From the NCBI RefSeq assembly GCF_002309535.1, contig NZ_CP023275.1, positions 992,001-1,056,000 on the forward strand: a DNA stretch of 64,000 nt. Reading direction: 5' to 3'. Positions 13,535-29,051 of the stretch are shown in pieces. Below the pieces are notes generated by a model that worked only from the letters and a program-made list of their open reading frames with translations, was not told the DNA's origin and did no database searches. The stretch comes from Sulfurospirillum diekertiae (GTDB taxonomy: Bacteria; Campylobacterota; Campylobacteria; Campylobacterales; Sulfurospirillaceae). A program made the position numbers and the translations under genes. How positions within the stretch are numbered: position 1 is the stretch's first letter; each line of letters begins with the position of its first letter.

Positions 13535-13603
13535 AAGAGGAGGAGTGGATGTAATGAAACCTGAACAAATAAGTCAAAAAATTAAATGAATGAAAGGAAA
13601 AAA

Positions 13604-15884: not shown

Positions 15885-16066
15885 GTTGAGTGTGATAGTG
15901 TATTAGATGATCTCTTGCAAAAAATCAAATTTAAATTCAAGGGGAAAAAGAGACGATTTTCACGTCAATTTTTTTATAAGCTTTGTTGCGTTAACATACT
16001 TCAAAATCAGATTCTTAAAATTATGTTAAATAATAAAAATAATAAAGATTATATGATGAATGTCAA
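15885..16066. other. AT-rich intergenic stretch left of the integrated element
   Basis: No gene is visible here. Two points stand out. The bottom strand of 16015-16030 reads TTTAACATAATTTTAA, one mismatch from a sequence upstream of mccA. The last bases, ATGAATGTCAA at 16056-16066, are repeated exactly at the start of the mcc response regulator on the far side of the element. It may therefore be the original upstream region of the mcc locus. Confidence 0.4.
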
Positions 16067-16121
16067 GGGGTAAAGGGTGTTTTTTTGAAAGATTTTGATT
16101 TTTTTGAAGTTTTAAGAGGAA

Positions 16122-16139
16122 AGAGGCTTTTAAGCCTCT
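16122..16139 (-). terminator. Terminator of the leftmost element operon
   Basis: AGAGGCTT - TT - AAGCCTCT is a perfect inverted repeat overlapping the stop codon of the minus-strand 74-codon gene. On the minus strand it is followed by TTCCTCTT. Confidence 0.7.
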
Positions 16140-16362
16140 AACCTTGTTTTTGAGCGAATTGAGTGATAAGCATATCGAGCTTAGCATCAATTCTAACGAT
16201 CATTTCGTGCTTTTCTTTTGCTTCGTTTTGTTTTTCCCATAGGTTAACGACATCCAACTCTAAACGTTTTACTCGTTCTTTAAGAGTTGCGATAACTGTA
16301 ACAACTACGACAAGCTGACAACCAACAGCCAAACCAAAAGACAACCACTCTTGAAAAGTCAT
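16138..16362 (-). CDS. Small membrane protein with coiled coil, holin/XhlA-like
   Basis: A 74-residue protein with one transmembrane helix at about residues 8-27 (GLAVGCQLVVVVTVIATL) followed by a charged heptad-like region to the end. The architecture resembles phage holins or haemolysin XhlA-type lysis accessories, though no family motif proves it. It overlaps the preceding gene by one base and is the last gene of a three-gene unit. A role with the M15 peptidase in lysis is inferred. Confidence 0.6.
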   Translation of the reverse strand: MTFQEWLSFGLAVGCQLVVVVTVIATLKERVKRLELDVVNLWEKQNEAKEKHEMIVRIDAKLDMLITQFAQKQG

Positions 16363-16697
16363 TACGCTACGCTTCTCATGCTGATGATTGAGATATTATC
16401 CGCTTTGACACCGTTAAATGTCAAACCAGTAAGAGCGGTATAAATTTCATCTTCACTTTTGTTTGATTTAACAGCCATTGAAAGATACGTTTTTAACCCC
16501 AGAGTGTTTGAGATCACAACATTTACAAGATTGTAAGGTGATGGTGTATCCGTACCAGTTGTGGAATTTAAAGCATATCCAACATATTCGCCTTCAAGAA
16601 AAGAAGCACAAAAAGCACTTGCAACCGTATCATCGCATGGAAGATTAAACGAACTTGTTTTTGCACCAAGTTTATTTTTAATTAATGTTTGTCCCAT
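16362..16697 (-). CDS. Unknown element protein, 111 aa
   Basis: A soluble protein of 111 residues starting MGQTLIKNKLGAK, rich in Ser, Thr, Asn and Val with predicted beta character and no transmembrane segment. AAAGAGG lies upstream of the start. It abuts the 117-residue gene and is similar to it in size. I do not recognise the family. Its strong ribosome site and promoter-proximal place fit a virion or DNA-binding protein, but this is speculative. Confidence 0.6.
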   Translation of the reverse strand: MGQTLIKNKLGAKTSSFNLPCDDTVASAFCASFLEGEYVGYALNSTTGTDTPSPYNLVNVVISNTLGLKTYLSMAVKSNKSEDEIYTALTGLTFNGVKADNISIISMRSVA

Positions 16698-16699
16698 TG

Positions 16700-17053
16700 T
16701 TATGCCTCTTTCTTGTCATAGAATAAGTTTGAATAGTCACATTTTGTTGAAGACTTAAAGCTCTCATCAAATTGACCGATCACAGCCGTTTGAATTTCAG
16801 CGAAAGATTTTGTAGCTTTAACGTGAGGAATAGACACGCTAGCACTTTGTCTTTGACCGCTAAGATATTTTTTGCCTACACTAAACTTTTTAGCGTTGAG
16901 AACCGCAGGATTAGCAGTTGTGCCACCCTCAAATTTTTGCTCATAAAAAGATAATTCACCCTCTAAGATTGCGCCTAAAGTTGTCATATCCGCCACACTA
17001 CCTGAAGCCGAAACAGTATTGACGTTTCTACCGGCAATTTTTTGTTTGATCAT
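16700..17053 (-). CDS. Unknown element protein, 117 aa
   Basis: A soluble protein beginning MIKQKIAGRNVNT. ATG 17053 is chosen because AAAGG precedes it; the frame is open 11 codons further upstream. It contains KYLSGQRQSASVSIPHVKA and ends with acidic and lysine-rich residues. There is no transmembrane segment and no recognised family. It is the first gene after the minus-strand promoter at 17099-17125 and is followed by the 111-aa and 74-aa genes. Confidence 0.6.
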   Translation of the reverse strand: MIKQKIAGRNVNTVSASGSVADMTTLGAILEGELSFYEQKFEGGTTANPAVLNAKKFSVGKKYLSGQRQSASVSIPHVKATKSFAEIQTAVIGQFDESFKSSTKCDYSNLFYDKKEA

Positions 17054-17098
17054 TGGTTTACCTTTGCGTTTGATTTTGTTTTGCAAAACATGGGAAGA

Positions 17099-17125
17099 AG
17101 TTTAAAAGTTTTTTTGAAATGTCAA
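17099..17125 (-). promoter_or_regulatory. Element promoter (minus strand), TTGACA-15-TAAACT
   Basis: On the minus strand TTGACATTTCA is followed by a 15-base spacer and TAAACT. The block from the -35 to the -10 is nearly the same as in the promoter at 19892-19918. Confidence 0.55.
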
Positions 17126-17174
17126 TATAGGTGTTTCAAAACAACGAAAAGAAGAGACTTAGAGATAAGTCATA

Positions 17175-17201
17175 TTGACATTTCATTTTTAAAATTATCA
17201 T
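17175..17201 (+). promoter_or_regulatory. Element promoter (plus strand), TTGACA-15-TATCAT
   Basis: TTGACATTTCA with a 15-base spacer and TATCAT drives the divergent 86-codon gene. It mirrors the minus-strand promoter 50 bases away; ATGTCAATAT and ATATTGACAT form an inverted pair across the divergent region. Confidence 0.55.
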
Positions 17202-17235
17202 TCAAATCATATTTAAGATAAAAAAAGGGGGAAAA

Positions 17236-17496
17236 ATGGCAGTATCTGCAACAGATTGTCAAACGTTTTTAAAAAGTAGTTTTGGATTAAAAAATGTCAC
17301 GAGTACAACATTAAGTGAGTTACGATGTCTTACATGTGGAAAAATAGCTTATCAATCAGGGAGCTACGTTTATTGTAAAAGCAATATAACGGCACACAGA
17401 AAAACAAACCTAGATTATGCAATAGCTATCACAAAAAATAAAGCCGACCTAGTAAAAGCTTTAGAAAATTATACATTTACAGATACAGCAATGTAA
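17236..17496 (+). CDS. Small CxxC protein, only plus-strand gene of the element
   Basis: An 86-residue protein with LRCLTCGK and VYCKS near its middle, a partial zinc-ribbon-like cysteine set, and an otherwise polar sequence. AAAGGGGGAAAA precedes ATG 17236. It is transcribed against all other element genes from its own promoter, the usual place for a regulator or establishment protein. No family recognised. Confidence 0.6.
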   Translation: MAVSATDCQTFLKSSFGLKNVTSTTLSELRCLTCGKIAYQSGSYVYCKSNITAHRKTNLDYAIAITKNKADLVKALENYTFTDTAM

Positions 17497-17513
17497 AAGA
17501 GAGGGAGCTCACG

Positions 17514-17834
17514 CTCCACCGCTTAGTCACTTAACGATTGTTGAGATATAAAAGCAAAGAGCGGGCTTTTAAGGTGGAGTTTGTGAAATTTTATGTATTT
17601 TTGAGAGTGTTTGGCGTTCGAATCTGCCACTCAGTTTAGACGTGTGTTTTGGCGCAAAGCGCACTTTTTGGTCGGGGCTATCATTAACCAAAAGTGGGAC
17701 ATAGTCCCATTCTTGGTTAATGCCCCTTATACCCTAGCGGGTGGCGGGAGCTTTATTTTTAAAGCTTTAACTTTGTTAAGTTTGGATTCTGCGTTTGACA
17801 AAGAGAAAGAGAGGCGTGAGCCTACATGTAGGCT
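17514..17834. other. Hairpin-rich noncoding region, candidate origin/packaging signal
   Basis: This stretch between the convergent ends of the plus-strand gene and the minus-strand operon is dense in secondary structure. CTCCACC (17514-17520) pairs with GGTGGAG (17573-17579) around an inner AAAAGC/GCTTTT stem. GGGGC (17674-17678) to GACAT pairs with ATAGTC to GCCCC (17726), an arm of about 20 pairs with a 3-base loop and a 4-base bulge. AGCCTACATGTAGGCT (17819-17834) is a perfect palindrome. Such clusters mark the intergenic region of rolling-circle phages and plasmids. The nick site is not identified. An 80-codon frame crossing these hairpins is judged spurious. Confidence 0.55.
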
Positions 17835-17839
17835 AATCT

Positions 17840-18196
17840 CTAAGACCTTTTGAACAATCCAGTCACAATGCTTGTTATGTTAAAACCACCTACCTCTAAA
17901 TGGTTACGACATGAAAGAGCTATATCACCCTCATTTTTATTTAACTTGACATTATTAAGCACGATCTGATGACTCATATTTGCATTCGTTTTAATAATGC
18001 CTTTGAATACAGCCCAGTAACCGAAATCATCTATTGGAGATTGAGTATCATCCGAGTATTCTATCTTTAAAATCTCACTCACTTTCATGGTCGTTAATTC
18101 ATTAAAAAAAGCTAGACAATCGGCTACACTTTTAGCTTCAACTTGATTTGTAATCGTTCTACGTCCTTGTTTTAATTGCACTCTATAAATTGGCAT
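17840..18196 (-). CDS. Unknown element protein, 118 aa
   Basis: A 118-residue soluble protein opening MPIYRVQLKQGRRTITNQVEAKSVADCLAFF, which looks like a small alpha/beta domain. It has no transmembrane segment or recognised family. The start lies 2 bases after the stop of the 298-residue gene, so the two are probably co-translated. It is the last gene before the hairpin region. Confidence 0.6.
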   Translation of the reverse strand: MPIYRVQLKQGRRTITNQVEAKSVADCLAFFNELTTMKVSEILKIEYSDDTQSPIDDFGYWAVFKGIIKTNANMSHQIVLNNVKLNKNEGDIALSCRNHLEVGGFNITSIVTGLFKRS

Positions 18197-18198
18197 TT

Positions 18199-19095
18199 TT
18201 ACGCTCCCAACATTGTTGATATTCTTTTTACATACTCTTTGGATAATTCACAATCTTTTAAACCATTTTCATTAGTATCAACACCAAGAACACGACAAGC
18301 TTCTTTTAAAGTTAATGGAAGATCAGAATAAACAGAACCACCAAGCATTGCAACAACTCTTTCAACATAAAGAAATCCAAGTTTACAACCACTTAAACCA
18401 TTTTCAGAAGTATCACAACCTAAAAGTGAGGCTATAGTTTTAATATTACTCAACTGATTAGATGATGGAGTACCACCAAAAATTTTAACAATTGGAGCGA
18501 AATCAGGATAACAACAAACAACAGGAGGCAAAACTCCATAAACCGTCCACTCATCACCCTTACAATAATAATAACCATCTATTTTATAAACTTCAGAAAT
18601 TATTTTTATAACAGTTTCACCGTCATTACCAATAAAAGCAAAAGCATCTTCAAAAGTATCAAAAACAACTAAAGCTGAATTACGGAATAAGGGATATTCC
18701 GCATTTAGATTAAAAATAACATATTTACCAAGAGCAGACAATAAATAATTATAAGACTCTTCATAACTAACACCCATAAAAGAAGTAAAATAACCCCTAA
18801 TATAATTAGTAAAAAAAGAACAAAGCATTAAACCATGTTTAGAATCTTTTAAAAAAGGATTTCCAGCACTTGGAAAACGAGAAATACCAAGACAAGAAAG
18901 TGCGGGTAGTGAATTCAAAAAACCATGAAGATAACAAAAACCAACACCATAAAAAGATGTTTTAAAGAGAGGAACATCGGAATCTAAAAAAAAACTATCA
19001 AAAATAACATCATTTTTAAGAATAGGTTTAACCCCAGTATAGGCAGGCTGAAAATAATCATATGAATCATAATATGGAATAGTAGAAGATGACAT
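18199..19095 (-). CDS. Unknown element protein with C-terminal tandem repeat, 298 aa
   Basis: A protein rich in aromatic residues, glycine and cysteine (for example SSTIPYYDSYDYFQPAYTG at the start) without a signal peptide. The last 70 residues contain two copies of a roughly 32-residue unit of the form LGxDTxENGLxxCxL...YVxRxxxMLG, separated by about 10 residues. The DTxENGL core looks like a small calcium- or ligand-binding loop. Size and place suggest a virion surface or adsorption protein. The family is unknown to me. Confidence 0.6.
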   Translation of the reverse strand: MSSSTIPYYDSYDYFQPAYTGVKPILKNDVIFDSFFLDSDVPLFKTSFYGVGFCYLHGFLNSLPALSCLGISRFPSAGNPFLKDSKHGLMLCSFFTNYIRGYFTSFMGVSYEESYNYLLSALGKYVIFNLNAEYPLFRNSALVVFDTFEDAFAFIGNDGETVIKIISEVYKIDGYYYCKGDEWTVYGVLPPVVCCYPDFAPIVKIFGGTPSSNQLSNIKTIASLLGCDTSENGLSGCKLGFLYVERVVAMLGGSVYSDLPLTLKEACRVLGVDTNENGLKDCELSKEYVKRISTMLGA

Positions 19096-19101
19096 AAAAA
19101 A

Positions 19102-19869
19102 CTACTTATTATGAACATATGCAAGAGCATTAATTAAATTCATAAATTCTTCACTTAGACCAGTTAATTTGCCGTTAGAGTCTTTTGTATACATAAAGTC
19201 GGCTGCTTTATTAAGATCGTTTACATCAAGAACGGAAGCAGTATCACGTCCAAGAATTTTCTTCATGAGAGTAGTATCCTGAGCAGTAAATGACTTTGTG
19301 AAAAGCTTAAACATTAAAGTCTCATTGTAACGTGATGCCATATTATTACCTAAGCCCATGTGGAGATTTTCACGATTATAGAGGGAGTTTTTGGTATCAG
19401 TCACAGCAGATAAAGTATCAAAAGAAGATGAATTATGATTAAATTGTGAAGTCGTTTGAGCACTAGCTTTAAAACCCTGATGATTAACGATTATCTGACC
19501 AGTGATTAAATTCTCTTGATTTGAACTTTGAAAAAAGCCCATTTTACGAAAAAGTTTAACACCTTTTAAATTTCTATATTTTGCCAAACCTTTTTTTATA
19601 GGATTAAGCAAAAGAAGAGGAATTAAAATTTCAACTTTTTCAAAAATCTTTGCAATAAGAGCTTCCTGAGCACGAACAGCATACATGATAACACCAAATA
19701 CAAGAACATTCATAGAGCTTTCAATAGCTTCTTTAATTATCGGATTATCAATATCTTTAGTAAATGCTTGAATAATCTTTTTAGACTCATCGTATCCAAC
19801 CATCATAATGATTGTTTCAAAAAATTCCTCAGCAGAATTTTTCCCAACTTGTTGAACAGTTCCCGACAT
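19102..19869 (-). CDS. Unknown element membrane-associated protein, 255 aa
   Basis: The protein has one or two hydrophobic segments around residues 50-90 (MNVLVFGVIMYAVRA and VEILIPLLLLNPI), then a basic stretch and a polar C-terminal half. GGTG precedes the start. It is the first gene of a three-gene unit driven by the promoter at 19892-19918. The GTVQQVGKN sequence near the N terminus is not a Walker A motif. It could be a membrane component of the virion; family not recognised. Confidence 0.6.
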   Translation of the reverse strand: MSGTVQQVGKNSAEEFFETIIMMVGYDESKKIIQAFTKDIDNPIIKEAIESSMNVLVFGVIMYAVRAQEALIAKIFEKVEILIPLLLLNPIKKGLAKYRNLKGVKLFRKMGFFQSSNQENLITGQIIVNHQGFKASAQTTSQFNHNSSSFDTLSAVTDTKNSLYNRENLHMGLGNNMASRYNETLMFKLFTKSFTAQDTTLMKKILGRDTASVLDVNDLNKAADFMYTKDSNGKLTGLSEEFMNLINALAYVHNK

Positions 19870-19891
19870 TTAACACCTCGTTTTTTCGAGA

Positions 19892-19918
19892 ATGTTAAAA
19901 GTATTTTTAAAATGTCAA
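19892..19918 (-). promoter_or_regulatory. Element promoter (minus strand), TTGACA-15-TAACAT
   Basis: On the minus strand TTGACATTTTA, 15-base spacer, TAACAT. It shares the TTGACATTTYA start with both promoters near 17.1 kb. A small CTCG-T6-CGAG hairpin lies in the leader between it and the start codon. Confidence 0.55.
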
Positions 19919-20007
19919 TAGAGGGGAGAGAAAAGAACGAGAGAGACGAATGTTAAAAAAAGATTAATGATAATTTAAGAATAGTAAACAGCCTAAAAAA
20001 AGGCTAT

Positions 20008-20231
20008 TTACTTAAAAGATTTATCTTTTGAAAATTGGTTGATATCTTCTTTACCACCCATCATATGATATTGTTCAATCATAATATCAGAAGAAGCGTG
20101 AGGAGGAGTATAAAAATAATACCTAATACCAATATAAGAAAAAATAACAATTAAAACATAAAAAAATAATAAATAAATTTTTCTTTTAATTCTTTTTTTT
20201 CTTTATTAGATGAAAATTGTCCTTTTATCAT
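20008..20231 (-). CDS. Small single-pass membrane protein, apparently made by -1 frameshift
   Basis: ATG 20231 has a good ribosome site (GGGGGT, 9 bases away) and overlaps the end of the 396-residue gene. In frame it stops after 26 codons. A run of eight A on the coding strand (20193-20200), reading A AAA AAA G in frame, allows a -1 slip into a longer frame. The joined product is about 74 residues: MIKGQF..., a basic stretch, a transmembrane helix (YLLFFYVLIVIFSYIGI) and a polar tail ending SKDKSFK. The second frame has no ATG, GTG or TTG start of its own before the helix. A one-base length error in the run would give the same result. Confidence 0.5.
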
Positions 20232-21396
20232 GTTGGCGTACCCCCATTCTAGTAATAAATTCAGACATAATATCAACACTACTATCATAACCAAAAATAG
20301 AGGATATATCAATAGGCGAAAATAAGTCTATATCATAATCATCTAATTCAAGATTTTTTTCATCTGTTTGATTAATAGCTGTAACTGCATTTTTAACCAA
20401 ACTAGCCTCACGAGGAGACATATCAAAAAGAACATTCTCGTCAATATCCTTAACGGTTGTTGGTGTTCTTTGATAAACTCTTGCCTCTACCTCGTTTGAT
20501 CTGTGACTAACTTCGATCTCACGAGGAGACATACCGACAACACTATCAGACTCTAAGATGGTCGTTTCGATTGGTGACTTTGCGAATTCATTAGCTTCAG
20601 CAATATATGAATTTTTGGAAGCTTCAATCTGCAACGGTGTCATACCTGAAAGGTTTGTTGCTTCGAGTACACTATTATCTAAAGCACTCGTTTTAAACTG
20701 ATAGTTTTTCATCATAGCAAGATTTTTTTGATTTAAAATTTCTTGCGCAGTCATCTTTGTGTCGCCCACTTCGGTTGTAGCTTCTTTATCTTTTTTAGCT
20801 TGATCTGCTAAATCTTTATTAAGAGTATAAGATTTATCCATAAAACCTGTAGCAATATCCATGTATTTTAATAACCCATACATGTAATCATTAAAAACAT
20901 CAAACTTCGAGCCAAAAGTAGAGGTTAATGTGCCTATAGAAGTAACCAAAGATTTAGTATTCTGAGTTAAAACAGATGGCAAAGTAGCACCACTAGGAGG
21001 AGGAACTAAAGCATCTTGTTGACGAGTAAGATAATCCTCTAATTTACCCATATTTTCCAAAGTATACTTAAGATTTTCAGCTTCTTGTTGTTTATTTTTA
21101 GCCTCTTTTAAATCATCACCTGAAGCAGTTTTCATATATTCAGACAATAAAGTATAAGCAGTACTAAAAAGATCAATAGCCACCTTTGTCTTACCTGAAA
21201 TTTTAGACATAGAAATAGCACTTTCAAGAGCAGACATCGCAACTTCTTTACTAGTAGGAAGATTAGGTCTAAAATTAGTGTTATTTACGGGCGTAGAAGA
21301 ACCCGAAGGAACTTCAACACCAGGAATAGTGGAAGGAGTAGACGGTTGAGTATCAACAGTACGATTAACCGAACCTGCACCAGACCAACCACCCAT
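20206..21396 (-). CDS. Unknown element protein with internal repeats, 396 aa
   Basis: The largest of the unrecognised element proteins. It has a Ser/Thr/Pro-rich N terminus (residues 1-45), helical middle regions and three imperfect repeats in the last third built on (G/D)M(S/T)P(R/L)-x-(I/A)E/S at a spacing of about 33 residues. Two of these share an identical 15-base coding segment. No membrane segment and no ATP-binding motif are visible. Position among the putative structural genes suggests a virion component. Confidence 0.6.
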   Translation of the reverse strand: MGGWSGAGSVNRTVDTQPSTPSTIPGVEVPSGSSTPVNNTNFRPNLPTSKEVAMSALESAISMSKISGKTKVAIDLFSTAYTLLSEYMKTASGDDLKEAKNKQQEAENLKYTLENMGKLEDYLTRQQDALVPPPSGATLPSVLTQNTKSLVTSIGTLTSTFGSKFDVFNDYMYGLLKYMDIATGFMDKSYTLNKDLADQAKKDKEATTEVGDTKMTAQEILNQKNLAMMKNYQFKTSALDNSVLEATNLSGMTPLQIEASKNSYIAEANEFAKSPIETTILESDSVVGMSPREIEVSHRSNEVEARVYQRTPTTVKDIDENVLFDMSPREASLVKNAVTAINQTDEKNLELDDYDIDLFSPIDISSIFGYDSSVDIMSEFITRMGVRQHDKRTIFI

Positions 21397-21977
21397 TATG
21401 AATCCTTTAACGTAAGCAAGAAATGAGGAGCTAAAAGAATTTTACCATTTTGAGAAAGCTTATAAATAACAGAACTACCCTGAAGATCAACAGCGGGATA
21501 AGACCATAATTGCTGAGAAGCCTCAACAACATATTCACCTTTACGAGCCGAAACAGTTACAACCGTGCCATTAGGATAAGCACCAAAATTACCATCAAGA
21601 TCAGGAACAGAAAAACCATTTGATGTGACACCACCAGTAATATGGGGAGAACTAGGTAATTTAGACATTGCAGAGGCATCAATTACAAAATCAACATATT
21701 GAAAATTTTCACCAGAAGTAAAAATAAAACTATTACGATCAGAAGAAAGAAATACTTGAAAATTAGATCCCAAAATTGTTTTTGAATAATTAAAAATATT
21801 ATCAACAAAAGAAACAACAACAAAATCTAAATATTCAAGATTATTAGTCTCCGTATTTTGCCCTTGAATAAAAAAAACTAAATCACCTAAACTAACATCA
21901 ACAGTAGTACCATCAAAAAGAGTAAAAGAAGTATTTATAGGGGCAATAGACAAAACTGCATTAGTAGGAGCATACAT
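21396..21977 (-). CDS. Unknown element protein, beta-rich, 193 aa
   Basis: A soluble protein beginning MYAPTNAVLSIAP, rich in Val, Phe, Ser and Asn with alternating hydrophobic residues typical of beta sheets. No cysteine motif or membrane segment. It ends on the start codon of the 396-residue gene. The composition and place fit a capsid or spike protein, which remains a guess. Confidence 0.6.
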   Translation of the reverse strand: MYAPTNAVLSIAPINTSFTLFDGTTVDVSLGDLVFFIQGQNTETNNLEYLDFVVVSFVDNIFNYSKTILGSNFQVFLSSDRNSFIFTSGENFQYVDFVIDASAMSKLPSSPHITGGVTSNGFSVPDLDGNFGAYPNGTVVTVSARKGEYVVEASQQLWSYPAVDLQGSSVIYKLSQNGKILLAPHFLLTLKDS

Positions 21978-21987
21978 AAAAACCCCC

Positions 21988-22317
21988 TTACTTCATAATT
22001 GCAACTGTTTTGTCAAACAGTACATCAAGAGACTGGATAGAAACAAGAACGAGTTTTAAATTATCATCGTTAACCTCTTGTTTAAGCTCTTTTTTTTGCA
22101 GATAATCTGAAAGAATTTCAGAACAACGAGTAAGACCAATAACATCATTTTTTAACACTTCGTTATTTTGAAGTGTAGTATCTTGATTAAGCGTTTCCAC
22201 CACCTGAGAAGCAACAATAAGACCACCACCAATAGCGGGGTTGAAAGCCGTAGCAACTTGACCGACACCTCTTAAAACACTAGACCAGTCGTATCCTTGT
22301 AATTTTTTTAAATCCAT
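21988..22317 (-). CDS. Unknown small element protein, 109 aa
   Basis: The N-terminal half holds a glycine-rich, moderately hydrophobic stretch (GVGQVATAFNPAIGGGLIVAS) and the C-terminal half is an amphipathic, charged helix region. It sits between the M15 peptidase and the putative structural genes. The layout resembles small phage membrane-interacting proteins or the XkdX/holin group, but no family can be named. Confidence 0.55.
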   Translation of the reverse strand: MDLKKLQGYDWSSVLRGVGQVATAFNPAIGGGLIVASQVVETLNQDTTLQNNEVLKNDVIGLTRCSEILSDYLQKKELKQEVNDDNLKLVLVSIQSLDVLFDKTVAIMK

Positions 22318-22326
22318 TTTTTTTCC

Positions 22327-22698
22327 TTATTTCATAATTATTAGTATAGGATTTGGTTTTGACAAATCCATATCACAATGAATAAACGTGTCGTAAAGCA
22401 AAACACGTTTAAAACCTACTTTTAACAGAGCCGAAACAATGCTAAATCGAACACTATCGCTAGGAGTGGAAATATCCACAGCCAAACCTTTTGTATGTGC
22501 ACTATCTGTTACACCCCCTACATCTTTATTATGTTTTTTACAACGACAACCACAGTTAATTTTAAAAGGAATATTTGCCCATTGACGAGCAGTATCCAAC
22601 ATATAAACAACATCATCATTGATATTATTAAGACCACAACCACACTTACATGTAAACTCTTCTTTTTTGAAGTGTTCAACCATTAACCAATCAATCAT
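22327..22698 (-). CDS. M15-family peptidoglycan peptidase (endolysin-like)
   Basis: A 123-residue zinc D-Ala-D-Ala carboxypeptidase-like protein of the Peptidase_M15_3 type, common in small phages. The zinc motifs SAHTKGLAVDI (H-x6-D) and FIHCDMD (H-x-D) are both present, with a cysteine-rich N-terminal part (CKCGCG, CGCRCKKHN). There is no signal peptide, so it would need a holin or lysis partner to reach the wall. The start overlaps the small 33-codon frame, whose 3' end contains the AAGGAG used here. Confidence 0.88.
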   Translation of the reverse strand: MIDWLMVEHFKKEEFTCKCGCGLNNINDDVVYMLDTARQWANIPFKINCGCRCKKHNKDVGGVTDSAHTKGLAVDISTPSDSVRFSIVSALLKVGFKRVLLYDTFIHCDMDLSKPNPILIIMK

Positions 22699-22792
22699 TT
22701 TTTAACTCCTTTAAAAATACATTTATAAGATCAGGACACAAGATAAAAAAACCTAAAATACAATCGAAATAAAAATCTTCATTTTGTTTCAT
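22691..22792 (-). CDS. Possible 33-aa hydrophobic peptide before the M15 gene
   Basis: A short frame from ATG 22792 to TGA 22691, preceded by AGGA, encodes MKQNEDFYFDCILGFF followed by a hydrophobic stretch and KELKND at the end. It fills the space between the methyltransferase stop and the peptidase start, and its 3' end overlaps the peptidase by 8 bases. It may be a lysis peptide or only a leader that couples translation. Confidence 0.4.
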   Translation of the reverse strand: MKQNEDFYFDCILGFFILCPDLINVFLKELKND

Positions 22793-22795
22793 TTT

Positions 22796-23602
22796 TTACA
22801 ATCCTATTTGTTGCTGCAAAGTCACAGCAGATTTTTGTCTATTTCTTTGCGCTCGTTTACGGCAAGAAAAATCATAATATTTACCTCGCTGCTGAGTCAC
22901 AATTCGACCGCAACCACATTCACAGATTTTATTATCCTGTTGAGTCACACTTATTCCATCCAGGTCAGTCACAGCTTTTGCAAGTGCTCTACCAATACAA
23001 AGAGGAACACCGTTACCTACAGCTCTTTTTTTACCTTGCACGTTAAAACTTTTTAAGTCGAAATCATCTTCTAAGCCTTGCAATTTACAAAGTTCTCTAA
23101 AAGAACGGCTATCATTTGCAAGTGCACAATGTTCAAATTTCTGTGATCGATCAGTCACGTTTTTTCTTTCAATTTGTAGGTATTTATTCTCTTTATGACC
23201 GAATTGAATGTGGCGCAGCCGAGTCACGTTTTCATACCAAGATTGGTTAATGTCAATTCGCTGATGTGAATATCCATCAATTTGAATATTAGGTACACCA
23301 CTCACATTTTCTAAAAGATACCAGGACGAGTCACACTCTGTGACTATACGTATAAAATTTAAAATCATTTGGTAACCGTATGAATCTTCTAAAGCCGGTC
23401 GGTCACGTTTCATAAGAGAAAAATCAGGGCAAGGAGTACCGCCAATTACTCCATCAAATTTACCTTTAACACCTGTAAAGTCACGGATATCAAAATGCTT
23501 ACCTAGAATAATGTCACCTGCACTTACAACACAAAAACCAGCTTCTTTAAATGCACGATCTAGTAAGCCAATGCCTGAACATAGAGAGAGGACTAATTGC
23601 AT
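22796..23602 (-). CDS. C5-cytosine DNA methyltransferase with C-terminal zinc-ribbon-like tail
   Basis: A 268-residue cytosine-C5 methyltransferase. Motif I (LSLCSGIGLLDRAF), the catalytic loop GGTPCPDFS, the ENV motif (WYLLENVSG) and the C-terminal AVGNGVP motif are all present, so it looks active. The last 50 residues add CECGCGRIV...FSCRKRAQRNR, a cysteine-rich basic tail. The start at ATG 23602 follows the rep stop by one base and has TTGGAG upstream; the longer frame inside rep is not used. No restriction endonuclease gene is adjacent, so it is an orphan that probably protects or marks element DNA. Confidence 0.88.
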   Translation of the reverse strand: MQLVLSLCSGIGLLDRAFKEAGFCVVSAGDIILGKHFDIRDFTGVKGKFDGVIGGTPCPDFSLMKRDRPALEDSYGYQMILNFIRIVTECDSSWYLLENVSGVPNIQIDGYSHQRIDINQSWYENVTRLRHIQFGHKENKYLQIERKNVTDRSQKFEHCALANDSRSFRELCKLQGLEDDFDLKSFNVQGKKRAVGNGVPLCIGRALAKAVTDLDGISVTQQDNKICECGCGRIVTQQRGKYYDFSCRKRAQRNRQKSAVTLQQQIGL

Positions 23603-23603
23603 T

Positions 23604-25055
23604 TTATGCTCCAATAAATTTAGAAAAATCTTGCATAAACCAATCATGAACGCCTACACCCTCGTCATGTAAAGCGTTATATGTTTGATCAATAGTGTCA
23701 AAAACACGATTCACAAAGTAATGTTTATTTTGTTGCATTTTTTCATCATCTAAATCTTTGACCTCAAAACGATTAAAACGATCTAATCGTTTGCTATAAA
23801 CGTCCTCTAAAACAGTGCTATCATGTTTAGTTTCGGTGTATTCTTTGATCTTATTCATTGCATCTTCAATGGTACATGGACGAAGATTGCCATAGTGAGA
23901 AAGAGACGTGGAAAGGAAAGCTTTAAACGCATTATGAACATAGATAAAATCTGTTGTAAATGGTTTAACATAAGTGTCAATTGCATTCGTTTTATAGTGA
24001 CCGTTAAAGGTTTCAATGACTTTCCAGAGGGGGTGCACTTCGCTACGTTTAAAACGTTGACGTACAGCTTCAACACCTAACATTTTATGAATACCATTTT
24101 TTTGAGTTTTAAAACCTAGCATTATTTCGATAGTGTCTTGATCGTTGATATCGCGCAATGAAAAATCATCTAAACAACGACCCCAAAGATTATTTAGGTT
24201 ATTAAGTATAATTTCAAAACCATCTAAAACCTGACCATCTATAACCATATTTTTAAGCTTCTCACGCCTAATCTGAAACTCAATTCTAAAAACTTCTTTT
24301 GTCTCGTCATAGTCTTTATTAGTACGCCACAAACCCTCAATGAAAGACTTGTTAGGAAATTTCTTTATCTCTTTAGTTTTATTATAAACACGCATGAGAT
24401 AATCACCACCACCTTTCATAAAACCCTGAAAAGAACGTCCGCTATAATAAGAACTATCGCAACCTATTTCATCATCATAATAACGATTATTGCGTGTACG
24501 TGTTTTTGTACGGTGAAAATCTAAGATCGTAAAGTTATAACCCTGAACATCACACTGCAAATGTATTTCACTGATCTTAATTGTGTAATGGGAGATAATA
24601 AAATCTCTTAAAAACTTATTGACTTTTTGCACGGCAGAGATATAACCGTAACGTTGTAGAAACGAGGCTCTAAATTCGACTTTACAAAATGGGTTAGGGT
24701 CTATTGTCGTAATCATTTTTTTAAGGTGAATGGTTACATCAGCGTTTTTAATAGATACGCTAAATCCTCGCACGGTAGCGGGCATAATTTGAAAGAACGC
24801 CCCACCGAATGAGTGTTGGTACTGACTAAAGCTTTTATTCTCGTTTTTTTGGCTTTGAGCTTGCATTTTAGTGGATAGAAGATCATCAAGGAGACAGTTG
24901 TAGCCTCTAACATCATCACCACTCAAAAGCTGAGAGGGGTAAAGGTGATATTTAAGTGTGTCGATGTTTTGCCAAAGTTTGACCATATTCTGCATTAAAA
25001 ACCTTTTTGAAATTTGTACCACTAAGCCCCCCTTGATAAACCATTGTGGGGGCAA
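23604..25055 (-). CDS. Rolling-circle replication initiator (Rep_trans-like)
   Basis: A 483-residue protein resembling phage/plasmid replication initiation factors of the Rep_trans (PF02486-like) group. Diagnostic stretches are FTILDFHRTKTRTR, YYSGRSFQGFMKGGGDYLMRVYNKTKEI and VFRIEFQIRREKLK; the second corresponds to the YxGSRxSxxxxRxYxK signature of the family. This implies relaxase-type nicking of a double-stranded origin and single-stranded intermediates. The family match is by eye, and the catalytic tyrosine is not assigned. The start at 25055 lies within MPPQWFIKGG; a later Met (MQNMVKLWQ) is possible. Confidence 0.75.
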   Translation of the reverse strand: MPPQWFIKGGLVVQISKRFLMQNMVKLWQNIDTLKYHLYPSQLLSGDDVRGYNCLLDDLLSTKMQAQSQKNENKSFSQYQHSFGGAFFQIMPATVRGFSVSIKNADVTIHLKKMITTIDPNPFCKVEFRASFLQRYGYISAVQKVNKFLRDFIISHYTIKISEIHLQCDVQGYNFTILDFHRTKTRTRNNRYYDDEIGCDSSYYSGRSFQGFMKGGGDYLMRVYNKTKEIKKFPNKSFIEGLWRTNKDYDETKEVFRIEFQIRREKLKNMVIDGQVLDGFEIILNNLNNLWGRCLDDFSLRDINDQDTIEIMLGFKTQKNGIHKMLGVEAVRQRFKRSEVHPLWKVIETFNGHYKTNAIDTYVKPFTTDFIYVHNAFKAFLSTSLSHYGNLRPCTIEDAMNKIKEYTETKHDSTVLEDVYSKRLDRFNRFEVKDLDDEKMQQNKHYFVNRVFDTIDQTYNALHDEGVGVHDWFMQDFSKFIGA

Positions 25056-25127
25056 AGTTTTTTTCGCTTTTTGAAGCTCTACGAATAGAAATTCAAGAAA
25101 CGAAAAGAGGGCGTTAACCCTCTTAAA

Positions 25128-25622
25128 CTAACTTACTTTTTCCCATGATTGCCAAATAGGTGAAAGAACATCTTGTCCAAAATCTTTAACGAAACCTAGT
25201 GAGCCTTTAAACATGTAAGTGCTATTTAACTCTAATTCGTTATACATTGTTTCGGATACATTTTGAACGAGCGTACCGCCTTTAAAAATAAGAGTGATTT
25301 TGTAGCGGTTAGGGTAAAAAGTAGGGTCACCCAAAGCGTCAAGAATAGGCGCACCCGTTGTTTTATCCGTTCTTTGTTTACCGTTTTGGACTTCACGTTG
25401 TGAAATTTGAGCGGAGAGGGTAACTTTGTTTGCGTTTACTTGCTCATTGTAAAGCGCCATCATTTCGTGGAATTTATCCATAGTCATTTCACCTTCACCA
25501 ACTTTTGGTGACATGTCTTTCAAACCGACGTTATTGGCTGATTCACCATTATTAACTGGTGTGTGGACTAAAACTGGAACTTCTTTTCCGTTAACGGTTT
25601 CCGTTGTTATTTTTGTATTCAT
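25128..25622 (-). CDS. Unknown element protein upstream of rep, 164 aa (candidate ssDNA-binding)
   Basis: A soluble, polar protein with a disordered N terminus and a C-terminal region with beta character (YPNRYKITLIFKGGTLVQNV...). In rolling-circle phages the gene next to rep often encodes a single-stranded DNA-binding protein, so that role is plausible, but no motif proves it. It overlaps the HTH gene by four bases (ATGA type). Confidence 0.5.
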   Translation of the reverse strand: MNTKITTETVNGKEVPVLVHTPVNNGESANNVGLKDMSPKVGEGEMTMDKFHEMMALYNEQVNANKVTLSAQISQREVQNGKQRTDKTTGAPILDALGDPTFYPNRYKITLIFKGGTLVQNVSETMYNELELNSTYMFKGSLGFVKDFGQDVLSPIWQSWEKVS

Positions 25623-25813
25623 GCGATTCTTTCCTTTAATTGTTTTTCTTTTAAATGTATATTTTGCATACGGCTAATAAAAGCCGACCTCGAAACGCCA
25701 CTCTCTCTAATAATGTCCTCTCTTGTTATAGAGCACCCATAACCACCCCTTTTAATTAAATTTAAAACGGAAGTTAAAAGCATAAAATCCGTTTGTGAAA
25801 CTTCAAATTTCAT
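25619..25813 (-). CDS. Small winged/helix-turn-helix-like regulator, 64 aa
   Basis: A 64-residue protein whose sequence SITREDIIRESGVSRSAFISRMQNI reads as a helix-turn-helix: a turn at GVS, followed by a recognition helix. It is similar in size to small phage replication regulators. It is in a chain of four-base overlaps, with the 51-codon gene before it and the 164-codon gene after it. Confidence 0.6.
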   Translation of the reverse strand: MKFEVSQTDFMLLTSVLNLIKRGGYGCSITREDIIRESGVSRSAFISRMQNIHLKEKQLKERIA

Positions 25814-25965
25814 TTAACAATCTCAACGACCCAACCAATACGATCTTCAATCGTAACGATGGGATTATTTGTATAATTACGTTTTGCACTTTTGGCAAGG
25901 TTACGAGCATCACCAAAAGCACGCCTTTGACCGATTAAAAGACCATTCACGAGAACTCTAAACAT
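25810..25965 (-). CDS. Small element protein, 51 aa
   Basis: ATG 25965 to TGA 25810 encodes MFRVLVNGLLIGQRRAF... ending WVVEIVK, a compact basic protein. It overlaps the upstream 104-codon gene by 19 bases and the downstream HTH gene by four bases (ATGA), so the operon is gapless only if this gene is real. It is shorter than common gene-finder cut-offs. Function unknown. Confidence 0.65.
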   Translation of the reverse strand: MFRVLVNGLLIGQRRAFGDARNLAKSAKRNYTNNPIVTIEDRIGWVVEIVK

Positions 25966-26261
25966 TGTTGCCCCTTTGGAACAAAAGAATTAAAACGCTT
26001 TACAATCTCCATTAATAGAATTTCAGCACTCTCAAAAGTGTCCTCAAAATTAAAAAGCTTATCAGAGTGATAGAGTTTAATATCTGCAATATGAACATGA
26101 GAGCCTTTCACATCAATGCCAAGAGAAGCGGAACGCTCATAATCATCATGATAAATTCGAAAAGAAAGTTTTAAAGCACTCAAATCTATTTCATTATCGT
26201 AAACCTCAAAAGGAAAAGGCTTAAGTTTTTTTGGAATGTTGTTAAAGACGATTTTAGGCAT
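25947..26261 (-). CDS. Unknown element protein, 104 aa
   Basis: A 104-residue soluble protein starting MPKIVFNNIPKKLKPFPFEVYDNEIDLSALKL... with no membrane segment and no motif that I recognise. Its start overlaps the recombinase stop, so it is coupled to it. Such a tight link suggests a partner or regulator of the recombinase. Confidence 0.6.
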   Translation of the reverse strand: MPKIVFNNIPKKLKPFPFEVYDNEIDLSALKLSFRIYHDDYERSASLGIDVKGSHVHIADIKLYHSDKLFNFEDTFESAEILLMEIVKRFNSFVPKGQQCLEFS

Positions 26262-27210
26262 TGACTAACCCCTGATGAAATTTGACATAAACTGCACGGA
26301 ACAAATGAGACATACACGCCACTAAAGCGACCATTTTGTTTTTACCACTCTCAACGAGACGTGTATATTTTTCTTTGATAATGGGATTAAAACGGATAGC
26401 AGACATAGCGCAAAGATAGAGAAGTTTTCTAACCAAGGAACTACCACGCTTACTCATAGACTCTTTTTTATGAACTGATGTACCACTCTCAAAAACACGA
26501 GGGGAAAGACCCACAAAACTTTGAAGTTGTTTAAGTGTGTAATTCTGAGATTTTAAAAAAATAGGGACAAGCTCTAAAAGGAGAGCATAGCCCACACCTT
26601 TAATTTCTTTTTGAAGTTCAATGACATGTGGGAAAAGTTCTTTTAAAACTTTCTCTGCTTCTTTTTCCAAACCTTTTTTTGTCTCTAAAATTTTAAGTTT
26701 TAAAATGCACAAAAAAGAGTCTAAAGAAACGATAGGATTTTCTTTTTGAGAATGAACAAAATTTGAAAGTTGAGTATCAAGTTTACGAAGAAGATTAATT
26801 GATGATGTATATTTACGAAGTGTTTTATCAGATTGATTGAAGATCGTTTTAAACTCTTCTTGATCTAGTGTTTGAATATACTTAGCAATACCCAAACTAT
26901 CAGCAAGATCACTTTTTTTGCGTGAATTTAAGTGTTTAAGATAGTGACTCATCATGTAAGGGTTAATCATTATTTGTTTGAAGTCATGAACAGTGAGAAG
27001 CTTTTGCAATACGTGCATGTAATTACTAGTTGCTTCGTAACCAAAGAAAAGCTCACTTTTTTTATAAGTCGCCTTCAAGTAATCAAAAAAGCCTAAAATA
27101 GAACTCTCATTATTGAGAATTTGAAGAGGGTCGTATTTAAGACCGTCAAGAGTGATAGAAATATCCAATTTATCTTTAGCAACATCAACACCGACAAAAA
27201 CTTTACGCAT
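26254..27210 (-). CDS. IS110/Piv-family DEDD recombinase (probable integrase)
   Basis: A 318-residue protein. The N-terminal DEDD RuvC-like domain shows FVGVDVAKDKLD, FFGYEATSNY and RKSDLADSLG. The C-terminal Transposase_20 domain contains KGVGYALLLELVP and SKRGSSLVRKLLY with the conserved serine. Both halves are complete. In IS110/Piv systems such enzymes carry out site-specific recombination, and some filamentous phages (for example of Neisseria) use them to integrate. Here it is the first gene of the long minus-strand operon and sits at the right end of the element. A plain IS110 insertion is less likely because the gene is coupled to downstream element genes. Confidence 0.88.
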   Translation of the reverse strand: MRKVFVGVDVAKDKLDISITLDGLKYDPLQILNNESSILGFFDYLKATYKKSELFFGYEATSNYMHVLQKLLTVHDFKQIMINPYMMSHYLKHLNSRKKSDLADSLGIAKYIQTLDQEEFKTIFNQSDKTLRKYTSSINLLRKLDTQLSNFVHSQKENPIVSLDSFLCILKLKILETKKGLEKEAEKVLKELFPHVIELQKEIKGVGYALLLELVPIFLKSQNYTLKQLQSFVGLSPRVFESGTSVHKKESMSKRGSSLVRKLLYLCAMSAIRFNPIIKEKYTRLVESGKNKMVALVACMSHLFRAVYVKFHQGLVNA

Positions 27211-27277
27211 AGTAAATCCTTTTTTTATGTATAATGTGCACTTCTTTATACTTGTAAACGTGATCTAGTCACTAGAT
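27211..27277 (-). promoter_or_regulatory. Promoter and dyad operator of the recombinase operon
   Basis: On the minus strand TTTACA, an 18-base spacer and TTATAC precede AAGGAT and the start at 27210. Just upstream of the -35 lies ATCTAGT-C-ACTAGAT (27263-27277), a perfect 7-1-7 dyad fit for a repressor. Confidence 0.55.
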
Positions 27278-27293
27278 TATTATTAAAAGTTAG

Positions 27294-27358
27294 TACACGA
27301 ACCCCCTATCTTTATTTAAGGCTTAAAGCCTAAGTATGGTTACGGGGTTAAGCGTGTA
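27294..27358. ncRNA. Structured noncoding segment at the recombinase-proximal end
   Basis: TACACG (27294-27299) pairs with CGTGTA (27353-27358), AACCCC (27300-27305) with GGGGTT (27344-27349), and AGGCTT (27319-27324) with AAGCCT (27326-27331), all nested. The result is a 65-base extended hairpin with internal loops in a region without genes. In IS110-family elements the noncoding end encodes a bridge RNA with such loops, so this is a candidate guide RNA or recombination site. Transcription and strand are unproven. Confidence 0.35.
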
Positions 27359-27379
27359 TATCGTGACAAATAAATTACT

Positions 27380-27392
27380 TTTAACACAATTT
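27380..27392 (+). promoter_or_regulatory. TTTAACACAATTT motif upstream of the response regulator
   Basis: This 13-mer recurs exactly at 30476-30488 upstream of mccA, and with one mismatch on the opposite strand at 16015-16030. It could be a binding site shared within the mcc regulon. Confidence 0.3.
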
Positions 27393-27711
27393 AAAAAAAA
27401 GTATTAAAGAAATGAATGTCAAAATGAATCTTACAAGTATGGTTGATCCTATGAGCGAGTGCAATCTTTTAGATGTATTATCCAACAAAAAAGTGCTATG
27501 TGTTGAAGATGAAGCCTGTATTTTAAATAATATCATGGAATCATTAGAGCTTTTTTTTGGCAAAGTAGTGGGTGTTCGAGATGGTGTCGAAGCGTTAGAC
27601 GAAGCTCAAAGTAATCTTTACGATGTTCTCATGCTTGACATTTCTATTCCGCATATGGATGGATTAGAGGTGGTGAAGAAAATTCGTGAATTTGACAAAA
27701 AAATTCCTATT

Positions 27712-28627
27712 AGACATCTTGCAAAACTCAAATAAAAGGCACTAAAAATGCTTGGCAAGAGGCATGAAAAAATATGAACAAATGCAAAAGCATAAACCCA
27801 AAGATTTTAAGCGCCATATTGGCGTTAATGAAGAGACATTTAACGCAATGATAGAGGTGTTTAGGCAATACGATGAGAATCGTAAAAAAGGATTAGGTGT
27901 AGGAGGGAGGAGATCTCTTTCACCAGAAAATAAAGTACTTTTGATGCTTGGCTATTATCGTGAGTATCGCACCCTTGAACATATTGGATTTGATTATGGT
28001 GTGAGTGAATCAACGGCTTCAAGGATTGTATGTGAAGTAGAAGAAGTGTTGATTAAGTCTGGTAGATTTTCATTGCCAAGCAAGAGAGAACTCTATAAAA
28101 GTGATGTTGCCCTCTCTTTTGTTGTCATTGATGCGACAGAAACGCCTTGTCAAAGACCCAAAAAAAGCAAAGAGAGTACTACTCAGGTAAGCAAAAGCGT
28201 CATACCCTTAAAGGACAGATTGTGATTGATAAAGAGGAGAGGATTATGTGTGTGCATACCGCTAAAGGTACGACACATGATTTTAGACTGTTTCAAGAAT
28301 CTAATCTCCCCTTGATGCCCAAGACCTGTGTTTATGTTGATTTGGGATATCTGGGTATTGCCAAAGAACATAGCCATTGTCAAATTCCCCATAAAGCCTC
28401 CAAACTTCATCCTTTGAGTGAGGAGCAAAAAGAGGAAAACAGACAAAAAGCAAGTGCTAGAATATGTGTTGAACATGTGAATGCTAAAATCAAAACATTT
28501 CAGATACTCACCCAAAAATACAGAAACAGAAGAAAACGATTCAATCTACGCTTTAATTTGATATGTGGATTAATCAACTTTGACCGTGGTTTTGCTGTGG
28601 AATACAAATGAGTTTTGCAAGATGTCT
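27712..28627 (+). mobile_element. IS5-family insertion sequence, complete, 916 bp
   Basis: The ends are a perfect 19-bp inverted repeat, AGACATCTTGCAAAACTCA and its complement. The flanks carry ATT at 27709-27711 and 28628-28630, consistent with a 3-bp target duplication. One transposase gene split into two overlapping frames occupies the inside. Perfect ends and a nearly intact gene suggest a recent insertion. Confidence 0.92.
27764..28611 (+). CDS. IS5-family DDE transposase, two frames joined by -1 shift
   Basis: The first frame (to 28225) has the N-terminal HTH region and the first catalytic aspartate in VVIDATETP. The second (open from 28147) has the second aspartate in YVDLGYLG and the glutamate in CVEHVNAKIK. 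A run of seven A at 28160-28166 lies in the overlap, and a -1 shift there joins RPKK to KQREYYSGKQKRHTLKGQ, the normal family sequence. Programmed frameshifting is common in such elements, so this need not be a mutation. Confidence 0.85.
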
Positions 28628-29051
28628 ATTATTATTCTCTCCGCCCACACAGAGCAAGATTATCTTTGGAGGGCAGTTGAACTTAAAATTACACGTTATT
28701 TGGTCAAGCCTTATGATAAAAATACACTGATTAAAGCACTAGAAGATGTGTCAATGGAACTCATTGGGCACACTCCTATGTTTCAAATAACCGTTACATG
28801 TAAATATGATTTTTGTAAAAAAACTGTTTTTCACACAGAAGGTGAGTTAGCCCATTTATCCAAAAGTGAGAGTAGGCTATTGGAATACTTTTTAAAACGT
28901 CCCAATCAAACCGTCACATATGAACAGCTTTTTGATTATATGTGGGAGTTTGAACAACCAAGTAAAGAAGCACTCAAGTCTATTGTCAAGGAATTGCGTA
29001 AGAAAATAGACAAAAACTTTATCAAAAACCTTTACGGCGTTGGGTACTTGT

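Follow-up and report, generated by a model that had tools for sequence, protein, structure and literature searches.

What kind of element is integrated in the stretch of Sulfurospirillum diekertiae chromosome analysed here (contig NZ_CP023275.1; 64,000 nucleotides, called the window, to which all coordinates refer), and how did it find its insertion site? Comparison of the junctions placed the integrated element at 16046-27435 (11,390 bp, one CT core included), wider than the 16067-27411 given in a preliminary description of this DNA, and a second copy (locus L018) was detected in the same chromosome. The element is likely a prophage that represents an undescribed lineage of temperate viruses in Campylobacterota, with integration guided by a bridge RNA. 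The best-supported part of this explanation is the guide RNA beside the recombinase, a feature absent from the preliminary description. Features lie on the minus strand unless stated otherwise.

Insertion site and predicted guide RNA

The boundaries of the second copy were confirmed by an empty site in G015, a genome of the same species without a match to the element's replication initiator (Rep). There the site is uninterrupted, holds one CT and agrees with the flanks of the second copy at 28 of 30 bases on the left and 40 of 40 on the right, bearing out insertion at a short core that leaves the rest of the site unaltered. The site was also recognised, in a less preserved state, in G020 (27/30 left, 30/40 right) and G016 (26/30 left, 25/40 right); G028 did not match, and the window element's own site was not recovered in the compared stretches of G016, G020 and G028. 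The CT cores of the window element lie at 27436-27437 (left junction) and 16046-16047 (right junction). Among the three sequence groups of relatives used below, CT is the core in group 1, and groups 2 and 3 partly have other core letters.

The left end of the element, 27211-27435, is noncoding and lies upstream of the gene for an IS110-type DEDD recombinase. In position and fold it resembles an IS110 bridge RNA, the RNA-like part spanning about 27211-27365. IS110 bridge RNAs, or seekRNAs, behave in the way described below: as set out in the available sections of PMC11208160 and PMC11187229, their target loop pairs left and right of the site. The strand is predicted to form an outer stem, an internal loop with a small hairpin as its cap, and a further stem-loop. 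Of the two sides of the first internal loop, one equals the chromosome immediately left of the element and the other is the reverse complement of the right flank. The left target guide, TAACCATACT (27333-27342), faces a left flank of CAACCATACT, and the right target guide, AATAAAG (27310-27316), is the reverse complement of the right flank CTTTATT.

This correspondence holds across relatives. In the final test, which applied one rule to each of the three groups and replaced looser patterns, all 21 elements matched the left flank at 7-10 of 10 bases (mean 8.95, vs. 6.05 for wrong pairings), and all 20 with a right flank (that of G023 is missing) matched it at 6-8 of 8 bases (mean 7.10 vs. 4.38). 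None of 50,000 re-pairings reached the true sum on the left or on the right. By group, the re-pairings reaching the true sum per 50,000 numbered 0 (left) and 11 (right) in group 1 and 0 and 1 in group 2; group 3, with three elements, gave 8,482 and is not significant by itself. A guide search over the whole noncoding region gave 0 and 1 re-pairings as good in 20,000, and the earlier loose patterns gave 1 (left) and 61 (right) in 100,000 for group 1. For eight elements RNAalifold predicted 19 pairs, and in five of these both partners are changed in one sequence or more. Rfam gave no match in the element at E up to 1 and none at gathering score in four relatives.

Several observations weigh against this interpretation or qualify the tests. 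The single-sequence RNA fold is weak alone (z -1.82; 8 of 200 shuffles as good), and the RNAalifold consensus omits the small hairpin of the target loop. The patterns of the final test were set after the sequences had been read, and 21 of 26 recombinase loci were testable: the left end was not found in L059 and L063, the contig stops at the junction in L064, the left end of L113 lies beyond the stretch, and in L111, which matches partly by eye, the pattern missed the left end. The loose patterns performed poorly in group 2 (909 left and 12,370 right of 100,000), because their register was wrong there. The probable donor guides, TAATAATCT (27274-27282; element right end ATATAATCT) on the left and TTACAAG (27251-27257; core plus left end CTTGTAAG) on the right, are weak against controls; the donor loop matched the element ends at 6-9 of 9 bases, and a cross-group control scored nearly as high. 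The rows are partly non-independent, since G398 and G402 have identical guides and G013 and G027 have the right site in common. Rfam gave no match in the element at E up to 1 and none at gathering score in four relatives.

That the match is an artefact of AT-rich sequence and chosen windows is scarcely credible: AT-rich sequence and the searched window do account for the high background of wrong pairings, but the true pairings stand well above it, and fixed anchors with the core excluded still gave a mean of 7.33 of 8 vs. 2.49 on the left (nine elements; 1 of 100,000 re-pairings as good) and 5.0 of 6 vs. 1.95 on the right (eight elements; 7 of 100,000). RNA-guided integration is well supported by comparison, and the predicted bridge RNA very probably guides it. 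The IS110-type recombinase and the bridge RNA from 27211-27435 would insert a circular viral genome, the target loop of the RNA pairing with both halves of the chromosomal site and the strands being exchanged at the CT core.

Pairs of copies within one genome bear on how sites change. Compared in 250-bp windows, the two copies in the window genome are free of mismatches in 35 of 46; they differ in the first ~500 bp (RNA and recombinase start), in a block at ~20450-19200, by a few single changes, and by small indels in the genes for the 193- and 396-amino acid (aa) proteins. In G017, 47 of the 54 windows are free of mismatches between the two copies, 11.5 kb of contiguous sequence among them, whereas the first 1.4 kb, which holds the RNA and the recombinase, differs by 15-24% per window; the guide of each copy matches its own site. 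A tyrosine integrase takes the place of the recombinase module in three relatives (L067, L115 and L119). Because of these integrases and the difference between the G017 copies, the RNA and recombinase are counted as an exchangeable module, with near-identical viruses sitting at different sites. A nearly even prospect is that no module was exchanged, and that two viruses settled at two sites and gene conversion later homogenised the rest. Both copies share one chromosome in the compared pairs (G000, the window genome, and G017), the G000 pair also differs at the ~20450-19200 block, and the far end of the G017 pair has 4 mismatches too, all of which suits gene conversion; the tyrosine-integrase relatives, on the other side, show that module replacement occurs in the lineage. 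The module would have been either exchanged or spared by gene conversion, two possibilities that the paired copies do not separate, and the match of guide to site is unaffected by the choice.

Gene set, relatives and probable viral nature

The preliminary description named a DEDD recombinase, a C5 methyltransferase and an M15 peptidase, and all three scored above their Pfam cut-offs. The recombinase (318 aa, 26254-27210) has the DEDD (RuvC-like) and Transposase_20 domains; it matched PF01548 at 50.8 bits (cut-off 29) and PF02371 at 58.8 bits (cut-off 21.3), and the NCBIfam IS110 model (NF033542) at 131 bits, under its cut-off of 140. The C5-cytosine DNA methyltransferase (22796-23647; PF00145) is absent from most relatives. 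The M15 peptidase (22327-22698; PF08291) matched the endolysin family PHROG 894 at E 1e-26. Rep (483 aa from TTG, 23604-25055; its start in relatives is ~20 residues downstream of this TTG) can be called a rolling-circle-type initiator by remote similarity, to PHROG 1159, PHROG 33635 and the gII endonuclease of Thermus phage Zuza8 (32% over 20% of the query, E 6e-5); it also had weak matches in five plasmid records (best E 2e-3) and no Pfam match. None of the remaining proteins had a trusted match in PHROGs, Pfam or NCBIfam.

The gene set recurs well beyond the window. Of 44 genomes of the family, 9 had a Rep match, and in one of these (G034) the Reps are distant; the two G034 matches (L028 and L029) sit in unrelated gene sets and were rejected as relatives. 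The 255-aa profile was found in 20 of 398 genomes of the order (10 of 87 genera) and the 118-aa profile in 27 of 397 genomes of the phylum (10 of 68 genera), in draws that overlap. Forty loci were examined after L062, L108 and L118 were dropped as overlapping or near-duplicate; four of the forty (L020, L025, L027 and L058) are partial contigs. Rep was present in 36, the 255-aa gene in 37, the 118-aa gene in 38 and all three in 35, so that the gene set sought in other Campylobacterota proved strongly conserved. The relatives are collinear with the window element and gene order is kept across families. Judged by the second copy and these collinear relatives, the gene set is far from chance. In G150, two loci (L061 and L062) are direct tandem copies that repeat every 9,067 bp, and of the recombinase the inner one retains just the last 56 codons. 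G296 holds two near-identical copies head to head (L117 and L118), and contig L073 of the IMG/VR virus collection apparently has the same arrangement.

The element is highly likely to be a virus. This fits the conserved gene set, the precise integration, the lysin gene and the tail-fibre-like genes of some relatives. Twelve genes that lie downstream of the 111-aa-type gene in relatives were tested, and seven of them (L067, L071, L114-L117 and L119, from five genomes) gave tail-fibre or collar-type matches. Against a viral reading, the Pfam collar domain exceeded its cut-off in L067 alone and the other matches are largely to collagen-like repeats; no tail-fibre-like gene was found in the window element, and the other five of the 12 tested genes had no such match.

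Frameshifts in both window-genome copies also count against an intact virus. In the window copy a small membrane-protein frame is disrupted near a T run (20005-20230), and in the second copy the frames of the 193- and 396-aa genes are broken (L018 9385-11136). These breaks and the absence of a known capsid gene would suit a satellite or decayed element whose particle depends on a helper phage. Such dependence is unlikely, however: Rep, lysin and integration module are all encoded by the element itself, gene order persists across families and in copies where these frames are open (e.g., G022, G013 and G027), and helper-derived packaging genes were not found.

The missing ATPase bears on a further alternative. 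As the preliminary description had noted, no Walker A protein is encoded: the full motif is absent from the stop-to-stop stretches of at least 40 codons in the element. Among 426 family-labelled proteins of relatives the pattern occurred in one, a DEDD recombinase, probably by chance. The 18 window proteins gave no PHROG, Pfam or Walker A match for a terminase, portal or HK97-type capsid protein, no sequence match to a jelly-roll major capsid protein was found in PHROGs or Pfam, and a Zot/pI-type assembly ATPase was found neither in the element nor in relatives by PHROGs, Pfam and the Walker A scan. A RuvB_N match in L120, considered as a hidden ATPase, was rejected (E 0.02, under cut-off); L120 is a distant locus that has neither Rep nor the 255-aa gene. 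In phage records the window Rep matched Zuza8 alone, the 255-aa protein and the L065 Rep matched none, and the L057 Rep reached three Thermus phiOH records at E 0.1; the 255-aa protein of L065 had no match in plasmid records. These searches revealed neither a hidden ATPase nor a plasmid or integrative and conjugative element family for the gene set.

Four scans of IMG/VR were without match, and two gave L072 and L073-L079. Contig L073 has Rep and the 164-aa gene alone in common with the element. In five of the six other Rep-profile contigs (L074-L076, L078 and L079, but not L077) a Walker A protein is present, which, with the remote likeness of Rep to the gII endonuclease of Zuza8, whose IS110-type transposase adjoins its Rep, could point to an unusual filamentous phage (Tubulavirales) in which the Zot/pI assembly ATPase was lost or replaced and which leaves the cell by extrusion instead of lysis. 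Such a phage is improbable, given the absence of a Walker A protein from the element and its near-absence from relatives, an endolysin gene of the element's own, and morphogenesis genes that match no filamentous phage family in PHROGs.

The earlier proposal of a new, small temperate phage of Campylobacterota without packaging ATPase fits these tests; its newness is consistent with morphogenesis genes that had no match in PHROGs, Pfam and the phage records searched. The tailless or single-stranded DNA (ssDNA) form that went with the proposal is an inference.

Virion candidates and other genes

At fourfold degenerate sites T makes up 41-77% in element genes vs. 27-47% in four host genes, and T enrichment at such sites is a trend of ssDNA phages. 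The noncoding region at 17497-17839, a candidate replication origin or packaging signal, has an ssDNA fold with z -4.69 that none of 100 shuffles equalled, and it is partly conserved in relatives. Three small genes are proposed as capsid candidates, for proteins of 118 aa (17840-18196), 128 aa (16700-17086) and 111 aa (16362-16697). A comparison by hhalign relates the 118-aa and 128/111-aa families (probability 94, E 1e-7), and three paralogous units of ~115 residues are encoded in 32 of 40 loci. Two such units were counted in four loci, namely L115-L117, in which one unit has double length, and L069, in which a diverged third was placed by position; the remaining four loci are partial contigs. 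The 118-aa-type unit of L115-L117 (G351 and G296) is doubled in a single frame of 243-247 aa.

Structure prediction, suggested earlier as a search for jelly-roll folds, covered the 111- and 118-aa proteins and identified no capsid fold. The 111-aa model consists of two beta-beta-alpha-beta halves with middling confidence (mean predicted local distance difference test score, pLDDT, 74; predicted template modelling score 0.48), and the 118-aa model is poor (pLDDT 60). The 111-aa model had no clear structural match, with none in BFVD at E 0.001; these results count against the overall explanation. Resemblance of the model to ribosomal eL20/LX or YkzG folds (E 0.01, Z up to 5.6) was too weak to accept, and a pancreatic ribonuclease match of the 111-aa family (E 0.002) was taken as chance. 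Sequence searches of solved structures with four alignments gave nothing convincing.

On balance, a tailless ssDNA virion is slightly favoured, with no capsid fold identified in the two proteins modelled, and the three ~115-residue paralogs may be its capsid set, at a little under even chances. On induction, Rep would start rolling-circle replication. The virion, tailless and probably with ssDNA, would be assembled from the three paralogs together with membrane and spike proteins, would need no packaging motor, and would be released by the M15 lysin.

Overall the element carries 17 genes on the minus strand and one on the plus strand, with a coding share of 88%. Contrary to the gapless minus-strand operons of the preliminary description, there are noncoding gaps, which include 343, 336 and 149 bp, and the gene at 17236-17496 is on the plus strand. 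From the left end, the noncoding RNA region and the recombinase are followed by genes for a 104-aa protein of no known family (25947-26261; no confident match in PHROGs or Pfam), 51- and 64-aa proteins to which PHROGs and Pfam assigned no family (25810-25965 and 25619-25813, the latter kept in many relatives), and a conserved 164-aa protein without family match (25128-25622), a putative single-strand DNA-binding protein by its position before Rep. After Rep, the methyltransferase and the peptidase come a 109-aa protein without family match (21988-22317), a 193-aa spike candidate with variable N-terminus (21396-21977), a 396-aa virion candidate conserved in relatives and without confident match (20206-21396), and the broken small membrane gene. 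These are followed by the 255-aa protein (19102-19869), which has a hydrophobic N-terminal half and the widest spread of the untyped genes, a 298-aa spike candidate, again with variable N-terminus (18199-19095), and the 118-aa gene. The structured noncoding region then adjoins the plus-strand gene, whose 86-aa product lacks a family match and is a possible regulator by position; the 128- and 111-aa genes and a 74-aa gene (16138-16362) complete the order. The 74-aa product has a hydrophobic segment and a weak FlxA match under cut-off. Holin-like labels for the 109- and 74-aa proteins are guesses, and the holin-like protein of the preliminary description, likewise a guess from sequence, was named by no library.

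Outside the element, a response-regulator gene on its left side (27412-29062) is split into a receiver part (27412-27735), whose initial codons fall within the viral element, and a C-terminal part from 28580; a DDE transposase in two overlapping frames (27752-28225 and 28147-28611) separates the parts. A formate dehydrogenase alpha gene (13586-15847) contains one in-frame TGA at 14024-14026, probably a selenocysteine codon.

Relation to known systems

With IS110 bridge RNA/seekRNA systems, as far as the available sections of the two reports describe them, the element has in common a DEDD recombinase, a predicted noncoding RNA upstream of it, a two-sided target loop and a CT core. Unlike in those systems, the recombinase here appears to act as integrase for virus-like DNA of 10-13 kb, almost every copy has its own site, and RNA and recombinase are apparently swapped as a module. 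The consulted part of PMC11187229 describes one case of re-targeting that arose naturally between two insertion sequences.

According to the sections available of PMC11437467, an IS110-type transposase is the probable means by which filamentous phages of Thermus and Neisseria integrate. Zuza8, Zuza27 and phiOH16 of Thermus and Nf of Neisseria share with the element a terminal IS110-type transposase and an adjoining rolling-circle Rep, but differ from it in carrying filamentous coat genes as well as an assembly ATPase (PMC11437467). In these sections 'RNA-guided' refers to TnpB, not to filamentous phage integration, and a guide RNA for the phages goes unmentioned. In Zuza8 (L017 6499-6773), ~275 gene-free bases precede the IS110-type transposase, and a bridge RNA could lie there.

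The Finnlakeviridae (FLiP and phiCjT23) are comparable to the proposed virus as small ssDNA phages, phiCjT23 being called temperate and lipid-containing in the accessible text of PMC13269007 and PMC9719478. The Finnlakeviridae described there differ in having Flavobacterium hosts, and no jelly-roll capsid protein was recognised in the element. Microviridae are not known to carry a packaging ATPase, have smaller genomes and carry a large jelly-roll capsid protein; none was found in the element by sequence. Microviridae prophages show that some of these small ssDNA phages are integrated (PMC7062461, in the part available).

Among the papers listed in searches of the open-licence literature, none was seen to describe a phage integrating by a bridge RNA, nor this element, which leaves such absence unproven. 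Known phage integrases locate their site by protein-DNA contact. If the present explanation is true, the site is instead written in an RNA loop, and the virus could move by changing ~16 bases or swapping one module. Bridge RNAs that move 10-13 kb of DNA would then have a precedent in nature, and at least 21 natural guide/target pairs are supplied here. Somewhat less likely than not is the full picture of a virus lineage with virion genes unrelated to described ones, a three-paralog capsid without a motor, and RNA-programmed lysogeny. If a particle is confirmed, the gene set would define a virus family unrecognised by the phage libraries searched, in a widespread phylum.

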